Assembly: GCA_002897115.2 (NCBI GenBank)
Contig: BCIH01000018.1
Location: forward strand, 62,001-126,000
Direction: 5' to 3'
DNA length: 64,000 nucleotides
From: Prototheca cutis
Lineage: Eukaryota > Chlorophyta > Trebouxiophyceae > Chlorellales > Chlorellaceae
Each line of letters opens with the position of its first letter. Position 1 is the first letter of the stretch. Below the pieces are notes generated by a model, which saw only the letters and a list, made by a program, of their open reading frames with translations, searched no databases and was not told the origin of the DNA. Below are positions 37,192 through 41,317 of the stretch, piece by piece. The position numbers and the translations under genes are program-made.

Positions 37192-40100
37192 ATGGGCACA
37201 AATCCGGCGGATGACGCCGTTTCGCGGCTGGTGGACAAGAATTCCAAATTATATGGTCAAATTGAGGTGCACAGGAGCCGCATCCACGCCCTGGAGAGCA
37301 GGTACGCGGGGGATGCAAAGGGAGCGATGGCCGACATGCCCCTGCCCAGGCTCACCTGGCTGCCAGCGCCCAGCCCTTTCCCGTGCGGTGAATTCGCAGA
37401 CTCGCGCAACTTGAGGTGCACGATGCGGAGCATGCCGAGACGGTGCTGTGCATCCGTCGCATGTGGGACGAGCTCAATGAGGCCATTGACTTCCTCAAGT
37501 ATTGGTGCGCAGGCGTGGGTGGCATGGATGGGAAAATGCAGGCCCTTGACGCGGCATGAGTACATGAGACCTGGGATATGATGTGGTCAAGAGTGATACA
37601 GATGCTGTGCCTCGTCAGCTGGGTGTTTGTGCGTGCGAAAACCCTGATTTTTTCCTCCCCATGTCCCACTGCAGCGTGAGGGGCACGCGGCCGGCGCTGG
37701 ACGGCCCCGAGGGCTCCGGAAGCGGGTCGAGCATCGTGACCGGCGCTTCACCCTTTCTTGCCACGGTGGCCAGCGCATTCCTGTCGGCCAAGGACCTCGC
37801 CTCGGCGGGCCTGGAGCCCGGTCCCGTGCCGGATCTCGAGGTCGAACTCCGCCGGCGCTCTGCTGCCACGCTCCAGGCCGCGGGTGTGCTGCTGCAAGAA
37901 GTGAACGGCCTGCAGCAGCGCTTTCGGGGGGCGGGGGCCGGGGGAGGTGCTGGTGGTGGTGGTAGTGGCGTTGCCGCGGCAGACGACGAGCCGGCAGGTG
38001 ATGTTGCATCTGCCGAGCCCATGGACACGGATGTGGCGGCCGAACGTCGTACCGGAGACGATGGCAACGAGCAGCCATCGCCGGCGCCGCCGGCCAGGCC
38101 GATCAACGGCGGCAGCGACCCAGGAACCGTCCACCTGGAGAAGAAGCTGGTGGCGCTGAATGTGCTGCTCAAGTCGGAAAACCGGCGGCTCCAGGACGCC
38201 GCCGATGCTGCAGCCGCCCGGCAGCACGACCTCGAGACCGCGCTGGCAGGTGTGTGACTGTGTGGAAAGCTCTGGCATTCGGCAATTGAATGTGGGGGGC
38301 TTTGGCGTGGTTGCTGCAGTGGACCGCGTGCCCTTGTATCAACCCCGCATTCGCTCGCTAATCACCCACACCCAGACCGCGAGGCTGAGCTGCTCGTGGC
38401 CCGGCGCAAGGCGGCGCAGCCCGCAGCCGTCCACGGAGCCGACAGCGCGCCTCACCCCGACCGGCCATGCTCCCCCGACTCGGTCGGTGGCCGGCCTTCA
38501 GGGACGACGACGGCCGCGACGACGGCCGGGGGGCCCTCGCCCAGCCCGCCCCCCCCGCCGCCCGCAGAAGAAAGCGAGGCCGCCGAGCTGTCGGCGGCCA
38601 ATGCCGAGCTGCAGGAGCGGCTGGGCCGAGTGGAAAAGGAGCTGGAGTCACGGGCCGCAGCCCTGGCAGCTGCCACAAGGTGTGTGGTCGTTTTTTTGGC
38701 TGTGTGTGTTTCTATTAGGTAGGATGGGTGCGTGGATTCGTGTATTTTTCTTAGGCGCCCTTCCCCCTAGCACTATGCCTGGCGTATGCCAAGGACATAC
38801 AACACCCCAAAACAAAAAAAACATGCGGAGGGGCAAAAAGCCTCGAGCACCGAAGTCTGATGCGCTTTCCACTGCGCCAAAGCAGCACCGGGCGGAAAAC
38901 CGCCGGGGTAGCTACTGCTTGAGGGATTCGAACCCCCGACCCTCAGATAGCATTCGCTCGGGAGGAAACGGAACTCTATTCCAAAATCGAATTAATGTCG
39001 CATCATAACGCGACGGGTCCTGTTGGGTCCGTCCAATCATGAAGAATGTCGTTCATGGTCTCCATGGACACCAAAAAAAAATCCTGGCAGCGTTCATGCC
39101 CAGTTTCCCGTCAAAAACACACAAAAGTAAACCTTGCCTTTTGCCATGTTCCAAAAAAGCCCACCCCAACACTCCGGAAACCCTGGCTCAGGGATGCGAG
39201 GGCGGCAAGGGAGGCTCTGGATCTGGAGCGTGACGGCATGGCACGCGCGCGCCAGCACGACCTGCAGCAGGCCCGGCGCCTGGAGGCCGAGCTGGGCGAG
39301 GCGGACGCCGCACTGCGCGCACTTCGCTCCGAGCGGGACCACTTGGCGCGGCGGTGCGCCGAGGCGCAGACAGCGATGGACGCGGCCGCCCACGCCGCGC
39401 GTCGCGCGCAGCTGGCAGAGGATGACGTGCGGCTGATGGAGCGGCGCCTGGCCGCCGCGCAGGCCGCGAGGGAGGAGGCCGAGAGTTTGCTGGGCGCCGA
39501 GCGCGCCAAGGCGGGGTCCCAGCCCACGGTCCAAGCCCTCCAGGATTTACTGTCCGCCGCCAAGGTACTAACAATGCTGTTATCATTCATTTGCTCGTTT
39601 GTTTATTGAGGGAATTTTGGGGGTTTTTTCCCCGAGAGAGAGAGTGTTCCATGACCGCACATCTGCTCTGACAACACCCACCGCCCCCCAAAAAAAATCT
39701 GCAGAGGGATCTTGGGGCGCAACAGACGACCGTGGCGCGGCTCCGGGTGCGGCTGGCAGAGATGCAGCAGGCAGCCGACAGCACCAATGCCGCGGTGTCC
39801 ATGGCCGAGGTGCGGTTCTGCTGGTGGTGTTTGGTGTCGATGAGGTGGAGTGGCAGGACCGTGCTATGTTTGTTTGGGTTGCTTCATCTTGGAAGATGGG
39901 GAGGCCTGTTGCAGTGCTGCCGCTCCTGAGTTTCCAGCACCCATGCCACCGGGCTTTCCTCCGGAACGACACGACGATACAGGAGACCCACGCCTCGGAG
40001 CTTGGGGAGCTCAGGCGAAAGTTTGCGGAGGAGGAAGCTGCGTGGAAGGTGGGTGGATGGGGGAACAGCGACTGCAGGATACGTAGACGGTGCGTGGCCT

Positions 40101-41317
40101 TTCACACAACATCACATAGACATTCAATGAACCAAGCAACTTTTCATCGAGCCGATGAACACGGCCATGCACAGGAGCGCGAGGCAGATCTGGTGCTGTT
40201 CATGGAACTCGCGCGGGAGTACGCGGGCGCAGGCGCGCGGAACGAAGAAAGCGCGGCGCGCGACCACGCTCGTGAGCTCCGCAGCCGCGTGATTCAGCTG
40301 GAACGACGAGTGGAGGAGTTGGTGGCTCAGCTGGAGGACGCACGGGCGGGGACACCAGCACCAGATTCCAATGGGCACGCGGCACCTGCCGGTACGACAA
40401 CTCCTGACACCTCCTTGCCAACCGACCAAGCCGCACTTAAGGACGCCAACTCCGCCTCGGCAGCACGGACGATCGCGCGGCTGGAGCGCGAGCTTGCGAC
40501 GACACGTAATCGTCTGTCCTCCAGCCAGGACGAGTGCGAGGCGTGTCTGGCAGAGCTGGAAAGCGTGGCGGCCGCGTATGAGGAGGCCCAGGCCCAGGCC
40601 AGCCGACTGGCCGAGCTGGCCCAGCGTGCCGACGACCAGCGGGGCACGCTCCTGACCGAACTCATGGCCGCACAGCGCGAACGGGCGACTGCGAGAGAGA
40701 ACGCGGCTGCGTCCGAGGAACGACTGCGTATCGCGGCCGCCGCGGCCGCCGAGGGCCGCACGAGGTGCGCCGAGCTGGAAGCCTCGGTTGCGGGGTTGGG
40801 AGCAGAGTCCGCCGCGCTGCGGCAAGAGGCTGGCGAAGCGCGGTCTGCGCTGACTGCAGCGCGAAGGGCCGTCGAGGAGCGAGACGTCGCGTTGGCGACT
40901 GCAAGCGCGGATGTCGAGGCGCTGCGGTCGGCGTTGACGGCTCGGTCTTCGGAGCGCGACGCCGCGGTCGAGGCTGCTGCAGCCGCCGAGGCACGCGCGA
41001 CAGCAGCAGAACAAAGCGCGGCCGCAGTCGCCGAACGCCAAGCCGCTGTCGCCACTGCTGCTGCTGCTTTGACAAACACGGGCGGCATCAACGCTGACGA
41101 GGACGTAGCGGGGCTGAAAGCGGAAGTCGCTGCTTTAAGAGACATGGTGAACTGCTCGGTGTGCCATGCCCGACGCAAGTCGGTTGTGCTGACAAAATGT
41201 TTCCACATGTTTTGCGGCGCGTGCATCAAGCGCAACCTGGAATCGCGGCACCGCAAGTGCCCTGGCTGCGGCACGGGCTTTGGCGCCAACGACGTTGCCC
41301 AGTTCTTCTTCACCTGA
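37192..41317 (+). CDS. BRE1: BRE1-type RING E3 ligase for histone H2B
   Basis: Monoubiquitinates histone H2B during transcription, with RAD6 as E2. Eight exons join in frame to 926 aa, similar to RNF20 and plant HUB proteins: 37192-37301, 37400-37504, 37675-38249, 38376-38679, 39192-39564, 39705-39809, 39983-40048 and 40175-41317. The N-terminal part has NSKLYGQIEVHRSRIHALE and MWDELNEAIDFL. The middle is a long Ala/Glu/Arg-rich coiled coil. The C-terminus is a C3HC4 RING: CSVCHARRKSVVLTKCFHMF, then CGACIKRNLESRHRKCPGCG, ending DVAQFFFT, which is specific to BRE1. Coiled coils are interrupted by Gly- and Pro-rich inserts. Intron 4 (38680-39191) hosts an antisense permuted tRNA gene. Confidence 0.95.
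38835..38839 (-). terminator. RNA polymerase III T-run terminator of the permuted tRNA
   Basis: Five T residues on the minus strand begin 11 bases after the end of the 5' half, as expected for Pol III termination of the permuted precursor. Confidence 0.7.
38850..38948 (-). tRNA. trnR-UCG: Circularly permuted tRNA-Arg(UCG) gene
   Basis: Read on the minus strand, the 3' half (nt 38-73) occupies 38948-38913. A 26-nt spacer (38912-38887) follows, and then the 5' half (nt 1-37) at 38886-38850. Together they make a complete 73-nt cloverleaf. Acceptor GCTGCTT pairs with AAGCAGT (one G-U). D stem is GCGC/GCGC around AGTGGAAA. Anticodon stem is TCAGA/TCTGA with loop CTTCGG+A, variable loop GGGTC, and T arm GGGGG-TTCGAAT-CCCTC, with A73. 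The loop CUUCGGA with anticodon UCG is the usual tRNA-Arg(UCG) loop, and D-loop A20 fits arginine identity. Flanks form a bulge-helix-bulge: outer helix 38844-38848 with 38956-38960, central pairs C32-G38951, U33-A38953, U34-A38954 and C35-G38955. The two 3-nt bulges are cut after their second base, giving G37/A38. CCA is not encoded. B box (38924-38934) precedes A box (near 38868-38879). Confidence 0.9.

Follow-up and report, generated by a model that had tools for sequence, protein, structure and literature searches.

The closest described counterparts of the locus presented here are the type II permuted tRNA genes of prasinophytes and Cyanidioschyzon merolae, in which, as set out in the review by Soma (2014; PMC3978253), the 3' half of the tRNA is encoded first, the halves meet at the junction between positions 37 and 38, and a short spacer lies between them; CCA is not encoded, a T-run follows downstream and the flanks of the junction are able to pair. 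All of these features recur at the locus described below. Table 1 of the same article comprises 34 permuted genes from seven organisms, with at most 11 in any one of them, and tRNA-Arg(UCG) is absent from that table. The largest set given there is that of C. merolae, where 11 of 43 tRNA genes are permuted, and permuted genes have so far been known as a minority oddity. The order of processing steps in its section 6 derives from work on C. merolae and on green algae.

Published carriers of permuted tRNA genes also include the trebouxiophyte Auxenochlorella UTEX 250-A (Plant Cell 2025, PMC12636532), which by inference probably belongs to the same order, Chlorellales, as the organism studied here; according to that article, the set delivered by tRNAscan-SE was incomplete and the permuted genes were found afterwards. 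The view expressed in the initial annotation of our locus, that permuted tRNAs are known mainly from Cyanidiales and prasinophytes, is thus out of date. No other report of permuted genes for this lineage appeared among the titles and abstract openings of the matches listed, and the word tRNA is absent from the main text of two Prototheca genome papers.

The permuted tRNA-Arg(UCG) locus

Within the window, by which we mean the whole 64-kb stretch of Prototheca cutis DNA that was analysed (GC content 60.5%, against a published 61.3% for P. cutis), the gene lies on the minus strand. For an M16 protease exon elsewhere in this stretch, Micractinium and Helicosporidium supply the best named green-algal relatives among the 120 matching proteins listed of 2643. 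Its 3' half (positions 38-73 of the tRNA; 38913..38948, minus strand) comes first in gene order and is followed by a spacer of 26 nt that leads from position 73 to position 1 (38887..38912, minus strand), and then by the 5' half (positions 1-37; 38850..38886, minus strand) with the anticodon UCG. The minus strand accordingly reads 38948-38913, spacer, 38886-38850, which is the swapped order first described for it, and the gene junction is 37/38. The spacer is inside the published range of 1-74 nt, has no encoded CCA and contains a TTTT at 38896-38899. When the halves are rejoined, ARAGORN names the resulting 73-mer tRNA-Arg(tcg), the identity originally proposed, and the stems all pair as had been claimed, including the acceptor stem of the rejoined molecule: 7 of 7 pairs in the acceptor stem (one G-U), 4 of 4 in the D stem, 5 of 5 in the anticodon stem and 5 of 5 in the T stem (one G-U). 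The D-loop has an A at position 20, which we take to be an arginine identity base.

Searched in its unrearranged form, the 64-kb window yielded no tRNA by ARAGORN (also with introns allowed) or by Rfam at gathering thresholds. A permuted-tRNA finder of our own gave a single match in the window, at the locus initially annotated, and none in 150 dinucleotide-preserving shuffles of the window. A covariance model of the permuted order, trained on 24 randomly generated textbook tRNAs and containing no sequence from this genome, scored the locus at 61.2 bits (E 2.9e-18 in a search of 82.5 kb). These results bear on the possibility that tRNA-like halves came to lie side by side by chance, an idea that gains some footing from the abundance of short motifs like the B box: three of the four B-box pattern counts used in our census were near or under those of a reversed control (105 against 87, 108 against 167 and 37 against 39). 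The finder, however, also gave no match in 40 sets of shuffled versions of 161 loci, and the shuffles together with the independent covariance model rule out a chance origin of the Arg(UCG) halves, to which we accord a negligible probability.

At low scores the covariance model does not separate cleanly: a false positive of 29.0 bits ranks above the permuted Leu(AAG) gene at 28.5 bits; the latter gene is accepted on the basis of the finder and of ARAGORN on its joined halves. The false positive is a colinear, intron-bearing tandem of Pro(AGG) and Asp(GUC) (L020/L038; C2:1800616-1800932, minus strand) that mimics a permuted gene. An artefact of this type does therefore occur in the genome, and the Arg(UCG) locus might likewise be a remnant of tandem intron-bearing tRNA genes with the outer halves still nearby, in which case a colinear tRNA would be made and the permuted reading would be incidental. 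Against this, ARAGORN found no tRNA in the whole window even with introns allowed, and each Arg(UCG) half is present only once by BLAST, so that such an origin is ruled out at this locus and is, in our estimate, extremely unlikely. Indeed, both halves have 100% BLAST matches in the 19.9-Mb genome at the window locus only, and a colinear tRNA-Arg(UCG) gene elsewhere, raised in the initial annotation as the mark of a rearranged pseudogene, was not found in this genome at BLAST sensitivity. We thus regard the locus as confirmed, at the level of sequence, as a genuine circularly permuted tRNA gene of type II, a kind already known.

The tRNA gene is antisense inside a GT-AG intron (38680..39191, plus strand; 512 nt) whose exons join in frame. 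An ORF at 39599..41317 (plus strand) carries, by sequence match, a BRE1 coiled coil and a C-terminal RING domain, the two together matching human BRE1B with an E value of 7.7e-20 over query positions 284-570. With BRE1 proteins as the best match of this region, the host gene is BRE1 by sequence, and the antisense placement in a BRE1 intron stands as first annotated. That 38680-39191 is a real intron is plausible; at 512 nt it is long against the published mean of 204 nt for introns of P. cutis. The intron was also considered as a repeat and rejected as such, since it is present once in the genome.

Permuted and colinear tRNA genes across the genome

In a partial census of the genome, at least 30 permuted tRNA genes with a 37/38 junction, for 21 anticodons, were found together with 18 colinear genes for 11 anticodons, and the two sets of anticodons do not overlap. 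The permuted genes are those for Arg (CCG, L095; UCG; UCU), Asn (GUU), Cys (GCA), Pro (UGG), Gln (CUG, two genes; UUG), Glu (CUC, four genes), Gly (GCC, four genes; CCC; UCC), Ile (AAU, two genes; UAU), Leu (AAG; UAA), Ser (CGA; UGA), Tyr (GUA) and Val (UAC; CAC, two genes). The first further permuted gene to be noticed was a Gln(CUG) gene, met at a neighbouring tRNA locus. The colinear anticodons are Lys CUU, Arg ACG, Phe GAA, Arg CCU, Met CAU (which we read as the initiator), Leu CAG, Asp GUC, Pro AGG, Pro CGG, Leu CAA and Leu UAG. In the colinear genes for Asp, Pro(AGG), Pro(CGG), Leu(CAA) and Leu(UAG) an intron lies likewise at 37/38; the site is common to both kinds of gene, whereas the halves of the intron-bearing genes are in normal order.

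These assignments draw on several methods. Seventeen colinear genes come from the Rfam tRNA model and the remaining one is Leu(UAG) (L054), which ARAGORN calls Phe and which we take as Leu(UAG) by reading; at L024 ARAGORN gives Asp with a long intron in one run and Pro(CGG) in another, the latter being the identity used here. Applied to joined halves, ARAGORN named 28 of 29 permuted genes as listed above, the exception being Pro(UGG), which it called Gln with the register off by two and for which the register was set with the start given by the covariance model. The 30th permuted gene, Val(CAC) L149, has halves equal to those of L148. The finder is of limited sensitivity: it missed the four Gly(GCC) genes and placed Pro(UGG) and Glu L046 in the wrong register. 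Candidates were drawn from four B-box patterns with 43 places (43 examined), 105 (67 examined), 108 (at least 36 examined) and 37 (at least one examined), so that about 147 of 293 places were covered, 37/38 being the one junction type sought. Of 246 candidates, 63 received a score in the Rfam tRNA search. Some of the stretches examined were short (301-331 bases), and a colinear gene with a long intron could be truncated in them. Genes for Ala, Thr, His, Trp and elongator Met were not found in this partial census, which means that the tRNA set assembled here is incomplete, and further tRNA genes of either kind probably remain in the genome. One locus, L057 (C12:216306 region), has a tRNA-like ARAGORN match without an assigned identity.

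The permuted Ser(UGA) gene (L037; C2:1778301-1778461, minus strand) has a spacer of 80 nt, as against a maximum of 74 in Table 1 of PMC3978253. Two of the permuted Gly(GCC) genes stand in tandem (L091; C13:122144-122224 and 122460-122539, minus strand), separated by 235 bases; their halves agree fully, whereas their spacers differ. The Arg(UCG) gene had initially been called noteworthy for its antisense place in an intron; it is indeed permuted and antisense in an intron, but it is one of at least 30 permuted genes in the genome. The unusual part, as far as the sequence informs us, is the predominance of the permuted kind among the tRNA genes found. At least 30 permuted genes in one genome contrast with the maximum of 11 per organism in Table 1 of PMC3978253, and the permuted share is larger here than in that table. 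For Prototheca wickerhamii, the published account gives all tRNAs except selenocysteine, in 64 genes, by tRNAscan; this argues against the permuted form predominating in all members of the lineage.

Junction pairing, transcription signals and processing

The initial annotation had described a bulge-helix-bulge at the junction of the Arg(UCG) gene. Such a structure can be drawn as proposed: leader bases at 38951..38955 (minus strand) are able to form a central helix in which 38951 and 38953-38955 pair with tRNA positions 32-35 (38855-38852), U38952 is bulged, two 3-nt bulges flank the helix, and the cuts fall after 37 and before 38. It continues into an outer helix of 5 bp beside the junction, seen in sequence and fold, between a leader arm (38956..38960, minus strand) and a trailer arm (38844..38848, minus strand; paired in the order 38848-38844). 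It is, however, not the minimum-energy fold, the strict form having -11.1 kcal/mol against -15.7 for the best fold of a mini-construct; the outer helix is common to both. In the precursor, the acceptor pairing can shift onto spacer bases, a form favoured by 0.8 kcal/mol over the canonical one. Shuffle tests of the junction are weak gene by gene (p 0.217 for Arg(UCG) alone; p<0.05 in 5 of 29 genes, with a mean z of -1.0).

A clearer signal comes from exchanging leaders and trailers among the permuted genes. Own pairs have a mean pairing energy of -5.71 kcal/mol against -4.03 for permuted partners, and none of 20000 permutations was as low (24 genes); when the Arg(UCG) gene is left out, two of 20000 were (23 genes). 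The Arg(UCG) leader and trailer themselves pair at -11.2 kcal/mol, which beats all 22 foreign trailers and is the strongest of 23 genes. Own pairing was not significant in flanks farther out (fraction 0.136; 23 genes) or at the ends of colinear genes (fraction 0.239; 15 of 17 genes). The preference is not uniform, as in six of 23 genes at least 12 of the 22 foreign trailers did equally well or better. For these flank tests one Glu and one Gly(GCC) copy were used and the three others of each dropped, while both Gln(CUG) and both Ile(AAU) genes were included and both Val(CAC) genes entered the 24-gene version; otherwise, and apart from the version without Arg(UCG), tests on 29 genes or 23 flank sets exclude the second Val(CAC) gene (L149), and those on 30 or 24 include it.

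Comparison of gene copies provides a further view of the junction. The four Gly(GCC) copies do not differ in their halves (210/210 and 216/216 positions agree in pairwise comparison), and the bases near the junction are largely kept (leader positions 1-6, 33/36; trailer positions 1-4, 24/24), as against the drifted spacer (20/54), far leader (52/180) and other far flank (37/180). In the Gln(CUG) copies (halves 35/35 and 36/37 kept) and the Ile(AAU) copies (36/36 and 37/38) the junction bases are not conserved. In the comparison of copies, one N in the Glu copy L093 was taken as G.

Downstream of the Arg(UCG) gene, a TTTTT resembling a Pol III terminator (38835..38839, minus strand) starts 11 nt past the 5' half and is followed by a run of eight Ts (38814-38821, minus strand). 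A run of at least four Ts lies within 45 nt downstream of all 30 permuted genes, compared with 142 of 1760 background 45-mers, and within 45 nt upstream of 8 of the 30. Upstream of the permuted genes there is no clear peak of a TATA-like element, the mean AT fraction being 0.47-0.56 per 10-nt bin. The TTTT in the Arg(UCG) spacer (38896-38899) is the sole T4 inside any of the 30 permuted gene bodies; in the remaining 29 there is none, and for the spacers of C. merolae a termination signal is not reported in PMC3978253. Since a run of only four Ts is also the longest to be found within 60 nt downstream for 4 of 29 permuted genes, early termination in the Arg(UCG) spacer is possible. A GC-rich hairpin is predicted in which the spacer TTTT occupies the loop.

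By analogy with other algae, the gene would be expressed along the following path. RNA polymerase III would copy leader, 3' half, spacer, 5' half and trailer into one RNA and stop at the downstream T-run. The precursor would then fold into a tRNA in which the spacer closes the acceptor stem, and leader and trailer would pair beside the anticodon loop, so that tRNA-splicing endonuclease could cleave after 37 and before 38, at the paired flanks. A ligase, for which an encoded RtcB is the candidate, would link 37 to 38 to give a circle, from which RNase P and tRNase Z would remove the spacer before CCA is added and the tRNA enters translation. In the genome, the endonuclease model tRNA_int_endo (PF01974) has two matches above cut-off, and RtcB is matched in four pieces of one genomic stretch, the pattern that a single intron-containing gene would give.

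The main competing interpretation is a rearranged pseudogene, in which a duplication left the halves swapped and unused; a divergent colinear gene that escapes BLAST, or the ACG and CCG tRNAs, would then suffice. The spacer TTTT unique to this gene among the 30 would fit a locus out of use, and by the standard wobble rules the colinear Arg(ACG) and the permuted Arg(CCG) (L095) could decode CGN. On the other hand, BLAST finds no colinear Arg(UCG) copy, all four stems are intact, and for 21 anticodons in this genome the genes found have their halves swapped. Moreover, its leader and trailer pair more strongly than those of any other of the 23 genes compared, a property that a dead locus would have no cause to keep. 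We thus consider a pseudogene improbable. Gene order, cloverleaf, the lack of a detected colinear copy, the gene's own leader and trailer pairing, the T-run, and the genes for endonuclease and RtcB are each shown by the sequence, and together they argue that the locus is very probably a working nuclear gene for tRNA-Arg(UCG), circularly permuted (type II, 37/38), in a genome with a largely permuted tRNA set.

Possible origin of the permuted genes and their meaning

One pair of genes bears on how the permuted form arises. The mature tRNAs of the permuted Pro(UGG) gene (L036; C2:935281-935361, minus strand) and of the colinear, intron-bearing Pro(CGG) gene (L024; C1:222817-222936, minus strand) are identical at 71 of 72 positions, the sole difference being the wobble base, and by eye there is no similarity between the two loci in flanks or intron. 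This pair suggests that permuted genes arise from intron-bearing colinear ones. It could be a leftover of the duplication-and-loss model or, alternatively, a product of reverse transcription of the circle, both of which are considered in section 10 of PMC3978253. With a permuted and a colinear gene separated by one base, the debated origin of permuted genes becomes directly testable.

More generally, with permuted genes in the majority among those detected, many of the tRNAs of this genome probably pass through an RNA circle, and colinear tRNA finders alone would miss many of its tRNA genes. We consider it likely that permutation is the normal nuclear state here, the majority of genes and of anticodons (21 of 32 detected) having the permuted form only, that an RNA circle is obligatory for most translation, and that colinear genes with introns continue to give rise to permuted ones. 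If permuted genes do outnumber colinear ones, circular RNA would be the default route to tRNA in this organism.
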